In this document: one piece after another, positions 758 to 16,719 of the stretch
Layout: each line of letters starts with the position of its first letter
Numbering within the stretch: position 1 is the stretch's first letter
From: a virus
Length of the DNA: 52,910 nucleotides
Virus record (IMG/VR): IMGVR_UViG_3300032401_000016
Location: 1 to 52,910 of that record
Direction: 5' to 3' (one strand)
Notes under the pieces: generated by a model
Seen by the model: the letters and a program-made list of their open reading frames with translations, nothing else
The model's database searches: none
Told to the model about the DNA's origin: nothing
Made by a program: the position numbers and the translations under genes

Positions 758-1501
758 GTGGGACTTCGTGAGTCGTTCAGCAAGGACGGGCGGATGGTGC
801 TCTTCAAGGACAACCCGGCAACGCGGCTCGCGGATAGGATCGCGGAGCTCAACTCGATGTACGGGACCCGGGCGTCGGGCGGGGGTGTTCCCTCCGCTCC
901 GGCCCCGGAGCCCGGCGGGGAAGCCCCGCCCACCCTCAACAGCGGCCTGAGCGAGGACGGCGGGGGCGGACTCCGGATGGTGGCCGCGCTCCCTCCGGAA
1001 GAGCAGGAGCGCCTCAACAGGCGCGCGGTCGAGGCCGGCCTCATGGTCGACGACAGCATCCCGGCCGACAACTCGGACCTCGAACCGGCGGCGGACCCCC
1101 CGACCCGCAGCCTCGTCGGGAAGCGCGGAACGCCGGTGCGGGGAGTACAGATCACGGGGCTCTCGGCGGACCCGGCCGGGCCCGTGAGCTTCACGGACTT
1201 CCAGACGATCGACCTGAAGCAGCGGCTCGTGTACGTGGGCGGGTTCCCGTTCCCGTACGGAGACACCGAGGCGCGCGCGTTCGGCGCGCTCATCGTCGGC
1301 ATCATTCGTCGCGTTGTCGACTACGACCTGGAGAAGGCCCTTGCAAACCTTAGAGAAGACGTGCTGGCGGTGCCGGGGGCTGAAGCCACTGTCGGAGTAC
1401 CACCGGCGATCGCGGAGCAGGGACGGACTCCAGGGGCACTGCCGCTCGTGCCGTCGGGAGATGACCCGGGTGCACCAAGCGAAGTACGGCCGAACCCATA
1501 A
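758..1501 (+). CDS. Hypothetical protein with Pro/Gly-rich linker
   Basis: 247 residues from a GTG with GGGAGG upstream. A basic N-terminus (about 1-40) is followed by a Pro/Gly/Ala linker (45-75) and a mixed domain up to about residue 205. The last 50 or so codons overlap the HNH gene in another frame for 161 nt and lose the hydrophobic/helical character seen before residue 200, so the natural C-terminus may once have been near 1345. No family is recognised. Confidence 0.55.
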   Translation: MGLRESFSKDGRMVLFKDNPATRLADRIAELNSMYGTRASGGGVPSAPAPEPGGEAPPTLNSGLSEDGGGGLRMVAALPPEEQERLNRRAVEAGLMVDDSIPADNSDLEPAADPPTRSLVGKRGTPVRGVQITGLSADPAGPVSFTDFQTIDLKQRLVYVGGFPFPYGDTEARAFGALIVGIIRRVVDYDLEKALANLREDVLAVPGAEATVGVPPAIAEQGRTPGALPLVPSGDDPGAPSEVRPNP

Positions 1502-9948: not shown

Positions 9949-10024
9949 TGGAGTCCTCGGCAGGAGTTGCACCCGCGTCATCCGGGTTCGAAGCCCGGCG
10001 GTCTGTCTGCTGGCCTACGAGGAC
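9949..10024 (-). tRNA. tRNA-Arg(TCG)
   Basis: Acceptor GTCCTCG/CGAGGAC, discriminator T, CCA encoded. Anticodon loop CT TCG AA on a 5-bp stem CCGGG/CCCGG. The T loop is TGCAACT (G55). Reads CGA and wobble partners. Confidence 0.85.
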
Positions 10025-10034
10025 GTGACGTATG

Positions 10035-10097
10035 TTGATTTTTCGTCCATGTACGGATGCGGTGGCAGTTGGCGCACACCACGTCACACTCTGTATG
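10035..10097 (-). pseudogene. Relic of the 3' end of an HNH endonuclease gene (copy 1)
   Basis: Between two Arg tRNAs the minus strand encodes CDVVCANCHRIRTW (10047-10088), the C-terminal CxxCxxCH signature of phage HNH nucleases. There is no usable start and the frame enters the tRNAs on both sides. It shares about 25 of 30 bases with the relic at 12088-12145. Confidence 0.7.
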
Positions 10098-10174
10098 TGG
10101 TCTCCTCGGCACGGATCGAACGTGCGGCCTCGATCTTCGCAGGATCGCGCTCTGTCCTACTGAGCTACGAGGAG
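10098..10174 (-). tRNA. tRNA-Arg(GCG)
   Basis: Acceptor CTCCTCG/CGAGGAG, A73, CCA encoded. Canonical D arm (U8 A9 GCTC). Anticodon stem CGATC/GATCG with loop CT GCG AA. Confidence 0.92.
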
Positions 10175-10179
10175 AAATC

Positions 10180-10257
10180 TGGAGGCCCTGGTGGGAGTCG
10201 AACCCACACTGTTCCGCGCTTAGGAGGCGCGGTGCCTGTCCGGTTGGCGACAGGGCC
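10180..10257 (-). tRNA. tRNA-Arg(CCT)
   Basis: Acceptor GGCCCTG/CAGGGCC, T73, CCA encoded. Six-pair anticodon stem with loop CT CCT AA; T loop TTCGACT. Reads AGG, rare in this GC-rich genome. Confidence 0.92.
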
Positions 10258-10262
10258 GGTGT

Positions 10263-10496
10263 CTACTTCGTGCCGTGCTCGCGATCGAGCGCGTCCGAGA
10301 GGCGCCCTTCGAGGATCGCGATCTTCGTGAGCGCATCGGAGAGCCGGCTGTTGACGAGCACGTGAATCTCCTGGAGCTTCTCCGCCGTAGCGGTCACGTT
10401 CTTGACGCTCTTGCGGGCCTGGAGAATCACAACGATCAGGGTCGGGAGGCTTGCGATCAGCGCGATGATGATAGCGATGGTGTCGGCGTGCGTCAC
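10263..10496 (-). CDS. Small membrane protein with C-terminal coiled coil, inside the tRNA array
   Basis: 77 residues from GTG 10496. A hydrophobic segment (about 5-26, IAIIIALIASLPTLIVVIL) is followed by a charged helix containing EKLQEIHVLVNSRL, a pattern common in small phage inner-membrane proteins. It could be a holin- or spanin-like lysis accessory, but this is a guess from shape. It lies between tRNA-Arg(TCT) and tRNA-Arg(CCT), with its stop six bases from a tRNA end. Confidence 0.65.
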   Translation of the reverse strand: MTHADTIAIIIALIASLPTLIVVILQARKSVKNVTATAEKLQEIHVLVNSRLSDALTKIAILEGRLSDALDREHGTK

Positions 10497-10501
10497 GAAG
10501 G

Positions 10502-10571
10502 GGCCCTCGGCGGGACTCGAACCCGCGGAAACCGGCTTAGAAGGTCGGTGGTCGTCCAGCGACACAAGGGC
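10502..10571 (-). tRNA. tRNA-Arg(TCT)
   Basis: Acceptor GCCCTTG/CGAGGGC; CCA is not encoded (C CCT follows). Short D loop. Anticodon loop CT TCT AA on a stem with an A30-C40 mismatch. T loop TTCGAGT. Reads AGA. Confidence 0.8.
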
Positions 10572-10576
10572 AGTAC

Positions 10577-10648
10577 TGGCGCAAAGCCGAGGTGTCGATC
10601 CCCGCTCGGCGGGTTTTGGAGGCCCGCCTGGACGCCGGTCCGCGATGC
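10577..10648 (-). tRNA. tRNA-Trp(CCA), degenerate
   Basis: Anticodon loop CT CCA AA is identical to bacterial tRNA-Trp, with a C31-A39 mismatch closing it. The acceptor pairs poorly in the middle (two T mismatches), the D loop is four bases, and the T loop is ATCGACA. CCA is encoded. It may be decaying or need correction. Confidence 0.6.
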
Positions 10649-10655
10649 GTACGTC

Positions 10656-10731
10656 TGGTCGGCCTCGTCGGATTCGAACCGACACTGTGCGGTGTTTGAA
10701 GCCGCCGCCTCTGCCGTTGGGCTACAGGCCG
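10656..10731 (-). tRNA. tRNA with apparent Leu anticodon (CAA) on a class I body
   Basis: Acceptor CGGCCTG/GAGGCCG with a 7-66 G-G mismatch, A73, CCA encoded, D arm TAGCCCAACGGCAGAGGC. The anticodon stem GCGGC/ACCGC has a C31-A39 mismatch and encloses TTCAAAC, giving CAA. The variable loop is only five bases, unlike normal tRNA-Leu. Confidence 0.65.
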
Positions 10732-10736
10732 AAATC

Positions 10737-10823
10737 TGGTCGTCAAGGGGGGACTTGCACCCCCACGAGCTCGCGCCCACACGGCTCTCAACCGTGCGCG
10801 TCTGCTGATTCCGCCACTCGACG
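10737..10823 (-). tRNA. tRNA-Leu(GAG)
   Basis: Class II tRNA with long variable arm. Acceptor CGTCGAG/CTTGACG (one G-T), A73, CCA. Anticodon stem CACGG/CCGTG with loop TT GAG AG. Confidence 0.92.
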
Positions 10824-10831
10824 ATGTGTTC

Positions 10832-10907
10832 TGGTAGCCCCCCAGGGATTCGAACCCTGACTGGCGCGCTTCTGAGGCGCGTGCCTCTGCCGTTGGGCTA
10901 GAGGGCC
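10832..10907 (-). tRNA. tRNA with Leu anticodon (CAG) on a class I body
   Basis: Acceptor GGCCCTC/GGGGGCT, A73, CCA. Anticodon stem CGCGC/GCGCG with loop CT CAG AA. The variable loop is short (CCAGT), so it lacks the class II arm of ordinary tRNA-Leu; the D arm is the same as in the CAA tRNA at 10656-10731. Confidence 0.8.
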
Positions 10908-10913
10908 ATGAGC

Positions 10914-10988
10914 TGGAGCGGGCAGCGGGATTCGAACCCGCGACTTCGGCCTTGGCAAGGCAGCGTGCTACCGCTACACCATGCCCGC
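10914..10988 (-). tRNA. tRNA-Gly(GCC)
   Basis: Acceptor GCGGGCA/TGCCCGC, T73, CCA. Anticodon loop TT GCC AA on CTGCC/GGCCG (one mismatch); T arm GCGGG TTCGAAT. Confidence 0.93.
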
Positions 10989-10993
10989 GAATC

Positions 10994-11067
10994 TGGAGCG
11001 ATCAGCGGGAATCGAACCCGCGTCGTCGGTTTGGAAGACCGAGGCCCTACCGCTGGACGATGATCGC
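10994..11067 (-). tRNA. tRNA-Gly(TCC)
   Basis: Acceptor GCGATCA/TGATCGC, T73, CCA. Anticodon stem TCGGT/ACCGA with loop CT TCC AA. Next to the other Gly tRNA. Confidence 0.94.
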
Positions 11068-11072
11068 GTTTC

Positions 11073-11143
11073 TGGTAGCGGGTACGCGAGTCGCACGCGT
11101 CGAGCCTGGCGTATGAGACCTGGCCGATCCTGGATCACCCGCA
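11073..11143 (-). tRNA. tRNA-Met(CAT)-like, divergent
   Basis: Anticodon loop CT CAT AC on an imperfect stem CAGGT/GCCAG. Acceptor TGCGGGT/ACCCGCT has a T1-T72 mismatch (an unpaired 1-72 is an initiator feature), A73, CCA. The D arm is hard to fold and position 8 is G. T loop TGCGACT. Confidence 0.6.
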
Positions 11144-11148
11144 ACGTC

Positions 11149-11224
11149 TGGAGCCCACGGCGAGAGTCGAACTCGCTGGGACCGACTTACAAGGTCGGTG
11201 CGCGTCCACACGCGCAACGAGGGC
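11149..11224 (-). tRNA. tRNA-Thr(TGT)
   Basis: Acceptor GCCCTCG/CGTGGGC (T5-T68 mismatch), T73, CCA. D stem GCGC/GCGC. Anticodon stem CCGAC/GTCGG with loop CT TGT AA. Confidence 0.9.
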
Positions 11225-11229
11225 ACTTC

Positions 11230-11305
11230 TGGAGCCGCACCCGGGCTACGATCCCGGCACCTCCCCCTTACCAAGGGGGTGCTCTGCCGACTGAGCTAGA
11301 GCGGC
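11230..11305 (-). tRNA. tRNA-Thr(GGT)
   Basis: Acceptor GCCGCTC/GTGCGGC, T73, CCA. Anticodon stem CCCCC/GGGGG with loop TT GGT AA. T loop ATCGTAG (A54). Confidence 0.92.
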
Positions 11306-11321
11306 ACGAACGTATGCTTTC

Positions 11322-11339
11322 TGCGTACGATCGTACGCA
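11322..11339. repeat. Perfect 18-bp palindrome between two Thr tRNAs
   Basis: TGCGTACGATCGTACGCA reads the same on both strands, within a 46-nt spacer that is longer than the usual 5-nt spacing in the array. Confidence 0.9.
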
Positions 11340-11351
11340 CACTGCGTAAGC

Positions 11352-11422
11352 TGGAGCCCTGGCCGAGAGTCGAACTCGGGGAGGCCGCGCTACGAGGGCG
11401 GCCCGCGTCCAACGCCGAGGGC
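11352..11422 (-). tRNA. tRNA-Thr(CGT)
   Basis: Acceptor GCCCTCG/CCAGGGC (C6-C67 mismatch), T73, CCA. Short D arm GCG TTGGA CGC. Long anticodon helix GGCCGC/GCGGCC with loop CT CGT AG. Confidence 0.82.
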
Positions 11423-11427
11423 ACTGC

Positions 11428-11503
11428 TGGTCACCCTCACGGGGATTGCACCCGTGTTTCCGGCTTGAGGGGCCGGCGTCCTGGGCTACTAGACGAGAGG
11501 GCG
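11428..11503 (-). tRNA. tRNA-Glu(CTC)
   Basis: Acceptor CGCCCTC/GAGGGTG, A73, CCA. Anticodon stem CCGGC/GCCGG with loop CC CTC AA: C at position 33. T loop TGCAATC. Confidence 0.85.
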
Positions 11504-11595
11504 AAACTCATGACCGGTGCTCTTCCAGTTGAGCTATGCCGACCGCGGGGCCCCGCAGCCGGCCGGGGACTCGAACCCCTATCTCCGGTCCTACT
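11504..11595 (-). tRNA. Candidate circularly permuted (3'-half then 5'-half) tRNA
   Basis: Read on the minus strand, a 3' tRNA half comes first: anticodon 3' strand ACCGG (11585-11589), variable loop, T arm GGGG TTCGAGT CCCC, acceptor 3' strand GCCGGCT. After linker GCGGGGCCCCGC (11545-11556) a 5' half follows: GGTCGGC, D arm TAGCTCAACTGGAAGAGC, anticodon 5' strand CCGGT (11513-11517). CCGGT/ACCGG pair perfectly and the acceptor strands pair at all seven positions (two G-T), with the linker extending the helix. The break falls in the anticodon loop. The piece fills exactly the gap between tRNA-Gln(CTG) and tRNA-Glu(CTC). Confidence 0.65.
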
Positions 11596-11670
11596 TGGCT
11601 GGCGGGGAAGGACTCGAACCTTCGTGCCTCGGGTCAGAGCCGAGTATCCTGGCCGCTGAATGACCCGCCA
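11596..11670 (-). tRNA. tRNA-Gln(CTG)
   Basis: Acceptor TGGCGGG/CCCGCCA, G73, CCA. Anticodon stem CTCGG/CCGAG with loop CT CTG AC. The U1-A72 pair and G73 fit glutamine identity. Confidence 0.93.
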
Positions 11671-11674
11671 AAGA

Positions 11675-11749
11675 TGGCTCACTCGGTAGGACTCGAACCT
11701 ACGCGCAGCCGGTTAACAGCCGGCGGCTCTGCCGCTGAGCTACGAGTGA
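11675..11749 (-). tRNA. tRNA-Asn(GTT)
   Basis: Acceptor TCACTCG/CGAGTGA, G73, CCA. Anticodon stem GCCGG/CCGGC with loop CT GTT AA. Canonical in all arms. Confidence 0.95.
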
Positions 11750-11756
11750 ATAAAGC

Positions 11757-11830
11757 TGGTGCCGCCCGCGCGGATGGCTACGCGCATCGCCGGGGGTAAA
11801 GGCCCCGCACTCTACTTGAGCTAGAGCGGC
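11757..11830 (-). tRNA. tRNA-Lys(TTT)
   Basis: Acceptor GCCGCTC/GGGCGGC, A73, CCA. Anticodon stem CGGGG/CCCCG with loop CC TTT AC: C33. The T arm is odd, with loop TAGCCATC if the stem is GCGCG/CGCGC. Confidence 0.78.
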
Positions 11831-11836
11831 GAAACT

Positions 11837-11912
11837 TGGTGAGGCCCCTCGGCTTCGAACCGAGACCTGAGCGGGTAAGGGCCGCTCGCTCTGCCAGTTA
11901 AGCTAGAGCCCC
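11837..11912 (-). tRNA. tRNA-Lys(CTT)
   Basis: Acceptor GGGGCTC/GGGCCTC, A73, CCA. Anticodon stem AGCGG/CCGCT with loop CC CTT AC: C33. T loop TTCGAAG. Confidence 0.88.
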
Positions 11913-11917
11913 GAAGT

Positions 11918-11989
11918 TGGTGGAGATGTCGGGTATCGCGCCCGCGAGGGCTGCTTGCAAGGCAGCCGTGTGACCTTTCACACATCCCC
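11918..11989 (-). tRNA. tRNA-Ala(TGC)
   Basis: Acceptor GGGGATG/CATCTCC, A73, CCA. Anticodon stem GCTGC/GCAGC with loop CT TGC AA. T loop CGCGATA (C54). The usual G3-U70 alanine determinant is present. Confidence 0.88.
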
Positions 11990-11994
11990 ATATC

Positions 11995-12080
11995 TGGTGG
12001 CGCCGGCAGGACTCGAACCTGCGAAGCCCGGAGGCATCCGGTTTACAGCCGGAGGCGATTGCCGCTACGCGACGTGCGCC
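11995..12080 (-). tRNA. tRNA-Tyr(GTA)
   Basis: Class II with a long variable arm, as expected for bacterial Tyr. Anticodon loop CT GTA AA. Acceptor GGCGCAC/CGGCGCC with two mismatches next to the body, A73, CCA. Confidence 0.88.
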
Positions 12081-12148
12081 GAAACTTTTCGTTTGTGTGT
12101 GCGAACTGCATGGCAGTTGGCACATACTACATCACACTTTTCGATAGA
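12081..12148 (-). pseudogene. Relic of the 3' end of an HNH endonuclease gene (copy 2)
   Basis: The minus strand between His and Tyr tRNAs encodes CDVVCANCHAVRTHKRK. Compared with the relic at 10035-10097, the differences within CDVVCANCH are all synonymous. No start codon is available. Confidence 0.7.
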
Positions 12149-12223
12149 TGGGGTGACCGACGGGGTTCGAACCCATCCTGCCGCGTTCACAGCGCGACGT
12201 GCTTCCGCTACACCACGGCCACC
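12149..12223 (-). tRNA. tRNA-His(GTG)
   Basis: Acceptor GTGGCCG/CGGTCAC with an encoded G-1 opposite C73, the histidine identity pair; CCA encoded. Anticodon loop CT GTG AA. Confidence 0.94.
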
Positions 12224-12299
12224 ATGTCGATTGGCGGAAGGGGCGACCCCGATCGCGGGCCGGCTACGACCCCCCGGCGCGCCGGGGGCCGATCTCTCT
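12224..12299. other. Structured GC-rich spacer in the tRNA array
   Basis: 76 nt, tRNA-sized but with no foldable tRNA. It holds an 18-bp palindrome CCCCCGGCGCGCCGGGGG (about 12271-12288) and a GGGG TCG CCCC hairpin. It may be a heavily decayed tRNA or a processing structure. Confidence 0.5.
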
Positions 12300-12374
12300 T
12301 GGTCAGGCCAGCCGGAATCGCACCGGCGTCATCGCCTTGAAGGGGCGAGGTCCTGTCTGCTAGACGATGGCCCG
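12300..12374 (-). tRNA. tRNA-Glu(TTC)
   Basis: Acceptor CGGGCCA/TGGCCTG, A73, CCA. Anticodon stem TCGCC/GGCGA with loop CC TTC AA: C33. T loop TGCGATT. Confidence 0.88.
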
Positions 12375-12380
12375 AATGTG

Positions 12381-12461
12381 TTACGGGTCGACGACGACTT
12401 CCGGCCCGCAGTTGACGAAGAGGAACCGCACGAGGAGAGCGAAGAGGCTGTAGTCGAACAC
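12381..12461 (-). CDS. Possible 26-residue hydrophobic peptide
   Basis: GTG 12461 preceded by GAGGGGGTG, stop TAA at 12381-12383. The peptide begins MFDYSLFALLVRFLFV, a short membrane helix, then NCGPEVVVDP. It fills the whole gap between Asp and Glu tRNAs. Too short to be sure it is made. Confidence 0.35.
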   Translation of the reverse strand: MFDYSLFALLVRFLFVNCGPEVVVDP

Positions 12462-12493
12462 GAGGTATCACCCCCTCTTCGGACGGCCGTAGA

Positions 12494-12568
12494 TGGCGGA
12501 CTCTGGGGGTTACGATCCCCGCCCTGCGCGTTGACAGCGCGCTGTGCTACCACTACACCACAGGGTCC
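12494..12568 (-). tRNA. tRNA-Asp(GTC)
   Basis: Acceptor GGACCCT/AGAGTCC with one C-A mismatch, G73, CCA. Anticodon stem GCGCG/CGCGC with loop CT GTC AA. T loop ATCGTAA. Confidence 0.88.
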
Positions 12569-12574
12569 GTACGT

Positions 12575-12650
12575 TGGTAGCTCCTCTCGGCTTTGCTCCG
12601 AGTGCCTCCGCTTTGTAAGAGCGGCGCTCTCCTGATTGAGCTAAGGAGCT
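12575..12650 (-). tRNA. tRNA-Val(TAC)
   Basis: Acceptor AGCTCCT/AGGAGCT, A73, CCA. Anticodon stem CCGCT/AGCGG with loop CT TAC AA. T loop AGCAAAG. Confidence 0.92.
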
Positions 12651-12655
12651 ATGCT

Positions 12656-12732
12656 TGGCGCCTCCGGGCGGAATCGAACCGCCTACGCGCTGCTCTTCAG
12701 GCAGCCGCTACTACCGGTGAGCTACAGGAGGC
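12656..12732 (-). tRNA. tRNA-Phe(GAA)
   Basis: Acceptor GCCTCCT/CGGAGGC (last pair mismatched), G73, CCA. Anticodon stem GCTGC/GCAGC with loop CT GAA GA. Confidence 0.9.
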
Positions 12733-12739
12733 GTGAAAC

Positions 12740-12832
12740 TGGAGGAAGGCGGGTCGAGTTGAACGCCCAACACGGTACATGCCGTGTGCTACGGTTTTCG
12801 GGACCGTCCGCTTACCATTCGCGCAGCCTTCC
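12740..12832 (-). tRNA. tRNA-Ser(CGA)
   Basis: Class II with a long variable arm. Acceptor GGAAGGC/GCCTTCC, T73, CCA. Anticodon stem ACGGT/ACCGT with loop CC CGA AA: C33. Confidence 0.88.
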
Positions 12833-12838
12833 GAAACT

Positions 12839-12912
12839 TGGGACCCGATTGTGGCTTGACACCCTCCCCGTCGACAGGGGGCATGGCTCGAGTCGACACC
12901 ACACTGGCCTTC
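12839..12912 (-). pseudogene. Degenerate tRNA (Asp-like anticodon loop)
   Basis: Exactly tRNA-sized interval ending in CCA, between Cys and Ser tRNAs. A CCCC/GGGG stem encloses CTGTCGA (GTC if read as an anticodon), but acceptor and T arms do not pair well. Probably a decayed gene. Confidence 0.45.
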
Positions 12913-12984
12913 TGGAGTCCGCGCCCGGTAACGCTCCGGGGTAGGCGTGCTTTGCAGGCACGCGCGCGACTTTCACTCGCGGAC
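12913..12984 (-). tRNA. tRNA-Cys(GCA)
   Basis: Acceptor GTCCGCG/CGCGGAC, T73, CCA. Anticodon stem GCGTGC/GCACGC with loop CT GCA AA. Small D arm; T loop AGCGTTA. Confidence 0.9.
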
Positions 12985-12989
12985 AAAAC

Positions 12990-13079
12990 TGGCGGAGGCG
13001 CGAGGGATCGAACCTCGGCGCGCTGTTGAGCGCGGCTACGGTTTAGCAAACCGTCCCGTTACCGCTCCGGCACGCCTCC
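12990..13079 (-). tRNA. tRNA-Ser(GCT)
   Basis: Class II. Acceptor GGAGGCG/CGCCTCC, G73, CCA. Anticodon stem ACGGT/ACCGT with loop TT GCT AA; variable arm GCCGCGCTC...GCGCGC. Its 5' base is also the last base of the next protein gene's stop codon. Confidence 0.94.
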
Positions 13080-13249
13080 TACTTCTTCTTGCCCTTCATC
13101 ACCTTGATCGCCTTCTTCACGACCTTGTGGAGGGACTTGTCTTCCTTCTCGGCCTTCTCGTAGGCTCGGGTCTCGCCGGCCTCGTGGGAGACCGTTTCCT
13201 TCTCGCGGCGCGCGTCGGCACGCATCTTCGGATTGACACGACGTGCCAT
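13079..13249 (-). CDS. Small Lys/Arg-rich protein inside the tRNA array
   Basis: 56 residues from ATG 13249 with AGGAGAAGAA upstream. Highly charged helix with a very basic C-terminus (KKAIKVMKGKKK), resembling several other small proteins of the structural operon that end in Lys tails. It overlaps the 5' base of tRNA-Ser(GCT). Could be nucleic-acid binding; no family recognised. Confidence 0.65.
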   Translation of the reverse strand: MARRVNPKMRADARREKETVSHEAGETRAYEKAEKEDKSLHKVVKKAIKVMKGKKK

Positions 13250-14130: not shown

Positions 14131-16719
14131 CTACCGCCGTTCACGGTCGCGCTCCTCTTGCTGCGCCTGCGCTACACCAGCGACGCGCGCGAGCCGGTCG
14201 CGTGCCTTATCGCGCCTCTTCATTGCTTCCTCGGCCTTCGCGGTCTCTCCGTTAATCAGGAGCGACCGCACCCTCATGTTGGCGTCGTCGAAGTCGCGCT
14301 TCGCGTCGACGAGAGCCGCGTTCTTGATGCCGGGCCCGGTGCGGGTGATCGAAGTCTGGGTCATTCCCCCGAGGGCCGACATCGTCCGCTTCGCGGCTTC
14401 CTTCTGGCCCCACGTTTTCGCGGCGAGGATGTGCTCCCGCGTCATGCGTACCTGCGGGACCAGCCCGGTCACGAGGTCCGACCCGCTCTCCTCCTGACCG
14501 GTGAGGAGATTGCGCTTGTAGCCCATCTCGATCGCCATGCGCGCCGGCATCAGGGACCCGGCCCAGAAGCGACCGGCGCCCGCCGCGACCGATCCCGCAA
14601 GTTCGGCGGGGGTCTGGTAGCGTTCGGTGACACGCCGGAGACGGCTCGGAAGGTTCCCGAGCCCGAACATGCTGGCGACCTGCTCCGGGACCCAGTACTG
14701 GATGCGCTTCACGACAGGCTTTCCGGTCGGGTCCTTGAGCGGGCGCCCATCTGGCCCTGCCACGATCACGTGGAGTCCGAGCTGCTCGAACTCCGGAAGC
14801 GAGCGCTCGACCGCGGCGAACTCGTCGTCCTGGTAGTTCCACATCATGATCGCGGTCGGCACCGCCGCGATTCCCGCGAGCATCGTGCCCCGCGTGCTCT
14901 TGTCGGTCGAGAGCGCAAGAATCTTCGGGGTCACGGCCCCGAAGAACGTGTAGAACGGGGCCATGAAGCGCGCGGTCGGGTTCCGCATGATCGCGGGACC
15001 CTTCGAGAAGTCGACCGTGATGTTGCGGCCCACGCGCCCGTACTCCGCGAGGTTTCCCAGGCGCTTCAGGGCCTCCTCCCCGGCCGCGATCTTCGGGGTG
15101 AGCTCCCCGGCCTGCCGCAGATTCGCGAGGAACTGGAGCGCGCCCGGGACGGCCTTCTTCAGGAGGTTCCGGCTGTCGGTCTCGTGGAGCTCCTTGAGGA
15201 TGCCCGACACCGGGGCGCCTCCCACGTCGTACGTGAAGGTCGAGGACGCGAGGCCCTCGTGGAGCGCGCGCGCGTACTTCCGGCCGCCCTTCCCGAAGAA
15301 CACGCCTCCGATCGCGGACCCGAACGCGTCGGGCCACTCGCGCAGGAACCCGAGCACCCGGCCGGGGCCGCCCTCGGCCGCGAGCGTGGTGAGCGCGAGC
15401 GCGTGGTCCGACACGAAGTTCACGGACGTGACCGCGGGGTTGTAGCTCGTGAACATGCGGGTAAAGGCCTGGGCGCCGCGGTAGATGCGGTTCTCGGACT
15501 CGCCGGGGATTCGGGGGTTGAAGTTCTCGAGCGCCTCCGCGACGCGCTTCGGGAGCACGAAGCCCCTCGCGAGCTCGTTGGCCCGCGCGCGCTTCATCGC
15601 GGCGGTCTGGCGGGCCGTGAGCCCGTCGATCGCTCCGTCCATCGCCTGCTGGATCGGGTCCTTCGCGCCCATGTAGCCGATCTTCCCGGGCCTCGGGACG
15701 TAGTACGCGAGCCCCGGGGGCAGCGGCCCGCCGGCCTCCCGAATCGCCTTGATCTCCGAGCGGTCCGTGAAGTTGATGGTCTGGTCGTTCAGGACCTTCG
15801 TGAGGAGGTCCTCCTCCGCGACGCGGCGCCGCACTACCGAGAGGTAGTCCGAGAGAAGCGTTACGGCGTCGGTGTTCCGGTGTCCGCCTTCGTGTCCGCG
15901 GCGCAGGAACTGCACGAGCGGCTCCGACATCACGCCCTCTTCCCCGCGGTCCTTCGAGACCGCATCGAGGACCATCGCCATCCTCTTGATGGGGGAGTAG
16001 GCCTCGTTGCGGCTCTCCTCGCTGACCCACCCGCGCTCCACCGCGGTCTCGAACGCGTCGTCGTACTTCTGGCGGACAGACTCGTGCACCGCCCTCGTGT
16101 CGCCATCGAGCGCGGCCCACAGGCGGGGCACGGCACCCTCGAGCTCGGCCTTCGTCAGCCCGTCGACGGTGTCCACCTTGTTGTGTGCGATCTGCGCGAG
16201 CCGGTCCGCGTTCACCATGAAGTCCGAGAGCTGGCGCGCCTTCGCGTACGTCTGGCGCCCCAGTCCGGAGATCGGCTTGAAGACGTCATCCTTGAGCTCG
16301 AGCTCGACCTGCTCGCGGATACGGCGCTCGAACGCGCGGGTCTCCCCGAAGTCCTCGCGCATCTTCTTCGGGAGCCCGGCCTCGCCGAGGAACAGGCTCC
16401 CGAGCCAGACCTTCGCGTCGTCCGTGATGTCGGCGATCGTCTTGCGGGTCGCGGGCGCCGGTACCGTACGGCTCGCGCGGCGCATCGACTCGGGGCCCGC
16501 GAACGGGACATCGAGCCCGGCCTCCCGCACGCCAGCCGGGAGCTCGCCGGCCGCCGGCATACGCTTCAGGGCCCGCTCGAGGATCGCGGGCGCCGCCGCG
16601 GTACCGCGCGCCCCGGCCTCCGGCACCGCGCTCTCCGCGATGCCCCTGAATGCCTGGCTCAATCCCCGACCGAGGCCTCGTGCCGCCTCTACGAACGGTT
16701 CTACCGGGAGCGGTGTCAT
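14131..16719 (-). CDS. Large virion/polyvalent protein with LPD38-like region
   Basis: 862 residues from ATG 16719, which overlaps the previous stop (ATGA). Long helical, Arg/Lys/Glu-rich sequence; around residue 575 a NPTARFMAPFYTFFGAV segment followed by hydrophobic helices resembles the large polyvalent protein-associated LPD38 type found in phage ejected proteins. It probably enters the host with DNA or forms part of the ejection channel. It forms a pair with the 1588-residue protein upstream. No enzymatic motif seen. Confidence 0.7.
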   Translation of the reverse strand: MTPLPVEPFVEAARGLGRGLSQAFRGIAESAVPEAGARGTAAAPAILERALKRMPAAGELPAGVREAGLDVPFAGPESMRRASRTVPAPATRKTIADITDDAKVWLGSLFLGEAGLPKKMREDFGETRAFERRIREQVELELKDDVFKPISGLGRQTYAKARQLSDFMVNADRLAQIAHNKVDTVDGLTKAELEGAVPRLWAALDGDTRAVHESVRQKYDDAFETAVERGWVSEESRNEAYSPIKRMAMVLDAVSKDRGEEGVMSEPLVQFLRRGHEGGHRNTDAVTLLSDYLSVVRRRVAEEDLLTKVLNDQTINFTDRSEIKAIREAGGPLPPGLAYYVPRPGKIGYMGAKDPIQQAMDGAIDGLTARQTAAMKRARANELARGFVLPKRVAEALENFNPRIPGESENRIYRGAQAFTRMFTSYNPAVTSVNFVSDHALALTTLAAEGGPGRVLGFLREWPDAFGSAIGGVFFGKGGRKYARALHEGLASSTFTYDVGGAPVSGILKELHETDSRNLLKKAVPGALQFLANLRQAGELTPKIAAGEEALKRLGNLAEYGRVGRNITVDFSKGPAIMRNPTARFMAPFYTFFGAVTPKILALSTDKSTRGTMLAGIAAVPTAIMMWNYQDDEFAAVERSLPEFEQLGLHVIVAGPDGRPLKDPTGKPVVKRIQYWVPEQVASMFGLGNLPSRLRRVTERYQTPAELAGSVAAGAGRFWAGSLMPARMAIEMGYKRNLLTGQEESGSDLVTGLVPQVRMTREHILAAKTWGQKEAAKRTMSALGGMTQTSITRTGPGIKNAALVDAKRDFDDANMRVRSLLINGETAKAEEAMKRRDKARDRLARVAGVAQAQQEERDRERR

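Follow-up and report, generated by a model that had tools for sequence, protein, structure and literature searches.

A circularly permuted tRNA-like element in a viral tRNA array as a probable Y-RNA-type tRNA mimic

The IMG/VR record IMGVR_UViG_3300032401_000016, which derives from a soil virus, was analyzed over its full length of 52,910 bases and is referred to below as the window. It encodes a terminase, a major head protein, a family-A DNA polymerase and an endolysin, and carries on its minus strand, between approximately 9.9 and 13.6 kb, a tRNA array in which 28 genes were recognized by ARAGORN. The locus considered here (L001) corresponds to window positions 9990-13110. Between tRNA-Gln(CTG) and tRNA-Glu(CTC), a slot of 92 nucleotides (nt) holds a tRNA-like element, including a D stem of 4 base pairs (bp), in which the tRNA 3' half stands before the 5' half. 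The element at 11512-11590 was called as a tRNA neither by ARAGORN nor by cmscan; both neighbouring genes, for Gln and Glu, are complete, and neither half of the element is part of a complete ordinary tRNA. The features are listed below in the order in which they are read, followed by the two neighbouring genes.

11512-11590, minus strand: whole permuted tRNA-like element, 79 nt (z of the RNA fold in native order -3.6; detector score 29.1)
11585-11590, minus strand: anticodon-type stem, 3' strand GACCGG, first in order (6 of 6 pairs with 11512-11517)
11564-11580, minus strand: T arm AGGGG-TTCGAGT-CCCCG, 4 bp and an A.G mismatch (sequence reading)
11557-11563, minus strand: acceptor stem, 3' strand GCCGGCT (7 of 7 pairs with 11538-11544, two of them G-T)
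11545-11556, minus strand: linker GCGGGGCCCCGC, 12 nt, 4 bp lengthening the acceptor helix and a GGCC tetraloop cap (predicted fold)
11538-11544, minus strand: acceptor stem, 5' strand GGTCGGC (pairing with GCCGGCT)
11519-11534, minus strand: D arm GCTC-AACTGGAA-GAGC, stem 4 of 4 (pairing and predicted fold)
11512-11517, minus strand: anticodon-type stem, 5' strand CCGGTC, last in order (pairing and predicted fold)
11596-11670, minus strand: tRNA-Gln(CTG), upstream neighbour, CCA encoded (ARAGORN and sequence)
11428-11503, minus strand: tRNA-Glu(CTC), downstream neighbour (ARAGORN)

From 5' to 3' on the minus strand, the segments are AGTAG / GACCGG / AGAT / AGGGG-TTCGAGT-CCCCG / GCCGGCT / GCGGGGCCCCGC / GGTCGGC / ATA / GCTC-AACTGGAA-GAGC / A / CCGGTC / ATGAGTTT. 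The presence of a permuted tRNA-like element at this position was confirmed, and the order of the halves, the coordinates, the strand and the sequence were found to be as given in the initial annotation of the window, as were the seven acceptor pairs with two G-T and the lengthening of the acceptor helix by the 12-base linker. The two anticodon-stem strands, which had been described as CCGGT and ACCGG, do pair perfectly, but their stem is 6 bp and not 5 bp long. In addition, the loose ends reaching to the neighbouring tRNAs measure 5 and 8 nt instead of about 9 and 6, and three bases, rather than two, join the acceptor and the D arm. Sequence reading revealed no CCA encoded in the element, and the natural flanks of the anticodon-type stem contain no T33 and offer arbitrary anticodons only, none of them consistent. 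Neither a bulge-helix-bulge splice motif nor an outer helix around the anticodon-type stem of the window element was found. A terminator was ruled out, there being no T run at the element. The sequences CATGAG and AAGTAG flank the element.

The minimum-free-energy fold of the element in its native order is exactly the permuted cloverleaf, with an energy of -44.3 kcal/mol, compared with -32.5 +/- 3.3 kcal/mol for dinucleotide shuffles, none of which (0 of 200) was as good. When the two halves were joined in silico, as had been suggested in the initial annotation, through a neutral anticodon loop of our own choice, ARAGORN returned a score of 119.1, and not the poor score that would have spoken against a permuted tRNA gene. 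A strict geometric detector found one equally good match in 90 Mb of Markov-random sequence, and a detector for capped acceptors found no match scoring 27 or more in 102 Mb of random sequence. The latter detector, with which the window element scores 29.1, gave at least 26 for 1 of 329 pairs of adjacent ordinary tRNAs in these arrays, and this result gives the scale on which arrays as such may produce false positives. The use of ARAGORN on rotated sequences was dropped, as it was too noisy beside isoacceptor pairs.

The same order of halves, with compensatory changes in the stems, was also found in the arrays of other phages, a check that the initial annotation had proposed. In the Streptomyces phage Percastrophe (MG663583), an unannotated element lies at 16103-16179 between tRNA-Pro and tRNA-Gly, with all the pairs present in the acceptor (7/7), T (5/5), D (4/4) and anticodon-type (6/6) stems. 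This element occurs at 98.7-100% identity in 10 Immanueltrevirus database records, representing 9 distinct phages of Streptomyces griseus, Percastrophe and Immanuel3 among them. A homologue with 73% identity to the Percastrophe element occupies the identical array slot in Streptomyces phage Abafar. The acceptor strands, CAG(C)TCACC and GGTGACTG in Abafar and TGGGTGA and TCACCTG in Percastrophe, pair in both phages, and the T arm, the D arm and the GACCGG stem are conserved between them despite the different acceptors. In HaugeAnator, one acceptor G-T pair is replaced by G-C. The minimum-energy fold of the Abafar element keeps the main helices, the cloverleaf being imperfect.

Independent array-embedded copies were observed in L118, L141, L143 (a tandem pair), L158, L159, L162, Percastrophe and its relatives, and Abafar. 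L141, whose acceptor has a GCAA cap, and L143 were detected with a pattern built on the same anticodon stem, and each lies between two tRNA genes; in L143 (IMGVR_UViG_3300031760_000002, 1046-1172, minus strand) two tandem permuted units, both GAAA-capped, are located between tRNA-Trp and tRNA-Tyr. A pattern for acceptors capped by a GNRA tetraloop gave at least 120 stretches in IMG/VR; most of those inspected are stand-alone Y-RNA-like genes, and L158, L159 and L162 occupy, among the matches listed, single slots within tRNA arrays. An apparently second and more reduced unit was seen just upstream of the element in L159. The anticodon-type stem sequence GACCGG is common to the window, Percastrophe, Abafar and L158. 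In several of the sister elements the acceptor is 3-5 bp long and is capped by a GAAA or GCAA tetraloop, and for this reason these elements cannot give a chargeable tRNA.

Covariation was assessed over 11 array or array-edge elements. The acceptor strands pair at 97% of positions with their own partner and at 47% with the partner of another element, and none of 20,000 permutations reached the observed value. The anticodon-type stems pair at 98% with their own and at 70% with a swapped partner; these two values are partly the result of selection, because the pattern by which L141 and L143b were detected prescribes the anticodon stem, and the acceptor figure is unaffected by this.

The search for close relatives of the window element gave less. 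When the region and the element were compared with phages by BLAST, the halves matched ordinary tRNAs only, a specific DNA pattern of the element had no match in IMG/VR, and the DNA polymerase and an SPFH protein, used as baits, recovered no close relatives carrying the array. The major head protein, used as bait in two scans, yielded 29 and 70 loci from partly overlapping records. In the 29 capsid relatives, the element DNA matched a T-arm piece only, and tRNAs were present in 19 of the 74 capsid-relative records searched. Two further convincing permuted elements were identified in the tRNA neighbourhoods of capsid relatives. The first (L039/L125, record G016) has intact acceptor (7/7), T (5/5), D (4/4) and anticodon-type (5/5) stems and an outer 5-bp helix; the second (L118, record G053) begins 5 nt past a tRNA-Met, and all its stems are intact with a mismatch at 1:72. 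A candidate at L120:11-83 passed the geometric screen and was attributed to chance, having no tRNA fold and lying far from tRNAs. A candidate of record G011 (L035/L129, 13343-13420, plus strand), whose ambiguous acceptor overlaps a second T-arm-like sequence, was excluded from all counts, and L124 (5463-5584, plus strand), with complementary acceptors and an unclear D arm, was excluded as well; both could be permuted or decaying elements in the arrays of capsid relatives. No Rfam match was found near L039, L118 or L124 that would point to a group I intron or a permuted intron-exon arrangement, and this explanation was rejected.

The statement in the initial annotation that no such order was known in a phage overlooks the Y RNAs. 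The tRNA-like module of YrlA corresponds to a circularly permuted tRNA (PMC11472068); YrlA binds Ro60 through a large terminal stem and PNPase through its tRNA-like domain (PMC8394870), and a role as competitive inhibitor has been proposed, not demonstrated, for this domain (PMC7790460). Phage Y RNAs had been reported earlier, as cited in PMC12282133, and in Listeria phage CKA15 Y RNAs were proposed beside an Rsr-like gene (PMC12282133). Positions 23-88 of the YrlA model RF02553 comprise a short stem, a 4-nt connector, a T arm, a capped acceptor, UA, a GCUC..GG..GAGC D arm and a stem, and the window element aligns to positions 23-85 with all four helices. It shares with the YrlA module (RF02553, PDB 6CU1) the permuted tRNA topology, the capped acceptor, the short connector before the T arm and the TAGCTC...GG...GAGC D arm. 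The array element differs from YrlA in having no terminal Ro-binding stem and no Ro60 gene, in its location between two tRNA genes and in a score far under the RF02553 cut-off. The 5 and 8 nt separating it from the neighbouring tRNAs leave no room for a large terminal Ro-binding stem. Folds that included flanks of +/-35 nt did not cleanly separate Ro-associated from array elements (p = 0.03, with tRNAs contained in the flanks).

The TROVE domain (PF05731) of Ro60 had no match in the window, whose record is possibly incomplete, and none in any of the 11 records with array elements, which include the complete genomes of Percastrophe, HaugeAnator and Abafar and eight IMG/VR records that may be fragments. 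It was present, usually near the element, in 37 of 50 IMG/VR records with Y-RNA-like elements among the matches listed. The comparison of the 11 array-element records (0/11) with the other phage records carrying Y-RNA-like elements (37/47) gave a Fisher p of 1.5e-6. The core module is shared with the putative phage Y RNAs beside Rsr or Ro60 genes, as in CKA15, Streptomyces phage BRock and the 37 IMG/VR records; in BRock and the 37 records, however, there is a TROVE gene and nearly all the elements are stand-alone, two features that the array elements lack. In BRock, a similar element, a TROVE gene and a tRNA array adjoin one another, an arrangement that connects the array elements with the Ro-associated type. 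The records G081-G130 (loci L153-L227) of IMG/VR form a large unannotated set of phage Y-RNA-like genes, none of which reaches the 69-bit cut-off of RF02553, and the model or its cut-off therefore seems too narrow for phage Y RNAs. No earlier report of array elements without Ro60 was found in the literature searched, which did not extend to the original publications on Y RNA (Chen 2014, Wang 2018).

As read from sequence and comparison, the element is characterized by its permuted order, a closed and paired acceptor arm, an anticodon-type stem that is open, intact D and T arms, an array slot between two tRNA genes, recurrence with compensatory changes and the lack of Ro60. Because it recurs in other viruses, including cultured Streptomyces phages, it looks like a tRNA look-alike that has been kept, and not like a tRNA used for making proteins. 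Its assignment to the class of Y-RNA-like tRNA mimics is probable, and we favour, with moderate confidence, the whole explanation, namely that the phage encodes, within its tRNA array, a circularly permuted mimic of tRNA that resembles the YrlA module and is devoid of the Ro60-binding stem. Several observations weigh against this explanation. The element scores 16.4 bits with RF02553, far below the Rfam cut-off of 69, although Ro-associated phage elements, too, reach only 33-50 bits; ordinary adjacent tRNAs also score 20-31 bits with the YrlA model. No close relative carries an identical element, so the covariation rests on other copies and not on the exact window copy, and a missing Ro60 is no proof in a record that may be incomplete.

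In the initial annotation the element had been taken for a permuted tRNA gene whose transcript RNase P would mature. In such a case the gene, perhaps a tRNA-Trp, would lose its linker by RNase P and 3' trimming, receive a CCA, and act as a decoding tRNA with its halves nicked or ligated. This would be consistent with the good score of the joined halves with a neutral loop, the full-length acceptor and the similarity of the 5' half to phage tRNA-Trp (the top phage BLAST matches of the D-arm half are mostly tRNA-Trp genes), with the fact that neither program calls the one Trp-like gene observed in the array (10581-10655), and with the RtcB gene in the relative G053. However, the flanks supply no T33 and no consistent anticodon, CCA is not encoded, and the sister acceptors are only 3-5 bp long and tetraloop-capped. 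Moreover, the linker extends the acceptor helix, and pairing of a leader with the 3' end is reported to inhibit bacterial RNase P (PMC9433436); RtcB was not found in the window, Percastrophe or Abafar, other RNA ligases not having been searched genome-wide. In the permuted tRNA genes of algae and archaea (PMC3978253, PMC3218864) the 3' half precedes the 5' half as it does here, but their transcripts become normal tRNAs through splicing at a bulge-helix-bulge, whereas the window element has no such motif and no CCA, and its sisters are unable to form a full acceptor. Maturation into a tRNA that is nicked or ligated is less likely than the mimic reading, and a true permuted tRNA gene appears quite improbable, although for the window copy alone, whose acceptor has its full length, a tRNA reading keeps some probability. 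The two-piece transfer-messenger RNA (tmRNA; RF01849-RF01851) is similar in that a linker joins the acceptor strands in the precursor; nevertheless, D and anticodon-type stems are present in the phage element, and a tag reading frame and pseudoknots are not. A tmRNA was rejected, since only the T arm matched the tmRNA models and a 4-bp D stem is present.

The element might instead be a frozen remnant of one tRNA gene that was tandemly duplicated, lost its outer halves and is now decaying. Both halves clearly derive from one tRNA, given that all 12-13 acceptor and anticodon pairs match, and the T-stem mismatch, the two G-T acceptor pairs and the lack of an identical copy in close relatives would fit decay. 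Against this, many unrelated arrays contain elements of the same order whose stems differ in sequence and are nonetheless intact, the Streptomyces phages keep the element with compensatory change, and the linker is a perfect hairpin cap and not a normal CCA-plus-spacer. A remnant is unlikely for the class as a whole and improbable, though conceivable, for this one copy. There is likewise very little probability, in our view, that the element is an ordinary Y RNA served by a Ro60 of the host or by one missing from the record. The topology fits the YrlA module, phage Y RNAs beside Ro60 are common, and the outer 5-bp helix of L039 could be a Ro stem; yet the short flanks leave no space for such a stem, TROVE is absent from all the array-element records, three complete cultured genomes included, and YrlA is defined by its large terminal stem (PMC8394870).

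If the element is a tRNA mimic without the Ro60-binding stem, it would be co-transcribed with the tRNA array, its 5' end would be freed by 3' processing of tRNA-Gln and its 3' end by the RNase P cut at the 5' end of tRNA-Glu, and the released product would be a stable RNA of 80-90 nt. Its elbow may be modified and bound as in a tRNA; tRNA modifications are also a feature of YrlA. Since it lacks both an anticodon loop and a CCA end, it would not be chargeable, would escape anticodon nucleases and enzymes that cut CCA, and could compete for a tRNA-binding host factor. The current view is that phage tRNAs serve in the conflict with tRNA-cutting defences (PMC10264068), and work on phage tRNAs and these defences (PMC10264068, PMC12851939) makes a nuclease a reasonable target. 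A competitor function, in which the mimic occupies a tRNA-binding host factor, is the one we consider most likely, although it is doubtful; the candidate targets are a tRNA-targeting defence nuclease and the PNPase site for tRNA-like RNAs, where YrlA docks. The decoy role named in the initial annotation is likewise possible. It is somewhat more doubtful still that phage arrays encode a Ro-independent class of permuted and acceptor-capped mimics which shield the phage from tRNA-targeting immune enzymes of the host by keeping these occupied, and from which bacterial Y RNA may even have evolved.

The usual view of phage tRNA arrays is that they are decoding sets, and a recurrent non-decoding member would mean that some slots hold tRNA look-alikes. 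That the tRNA-like module known from Y RNA occurs here apart from Ro60 suggests that it is able to function by itself and that tRNA arrays might be its place of origin. The cultured carriers Percastrophe, Immanuel3 and Abafar make the element experimentally accessible.

Some additional observations were made at the loci analyzed. A tRNA-Trp-like sequence (10581-10655, minus strand) and a tRNA-Met-like sequence (11068-11145, minus strand) in the window have stem mismatches and were missed by ARAGORN and cmscan, and the window array may be without sound Trp and Met genes. In L118 (8400-8477, minus strand), a second T-arm half (CATGAGTGGAAGTAGCGGCTAGGGTTCGAGTCCCATAGGCC) with no clear partner directly follows the permuted element, and the RtcB RNA ligase gene of the same phage (G053) is located at 55742-56977 on the minus strand. 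A long hairpin RNA-like sequence (L120, 8580-8660, plus strand) occupies the gap after tRNA-Pro in the array of a relative. Finally, a scan of bacterial and archaeal genomes gave a single exact match to the ACCGGAG..CCGGT element, at L276 (1317-1391, plus strand) in contig CAJXPN010000571.1 of a Myxococcales metagenome-assembled genome; this element is capped, has a TTCG loop and lies with no tRNA nearby.
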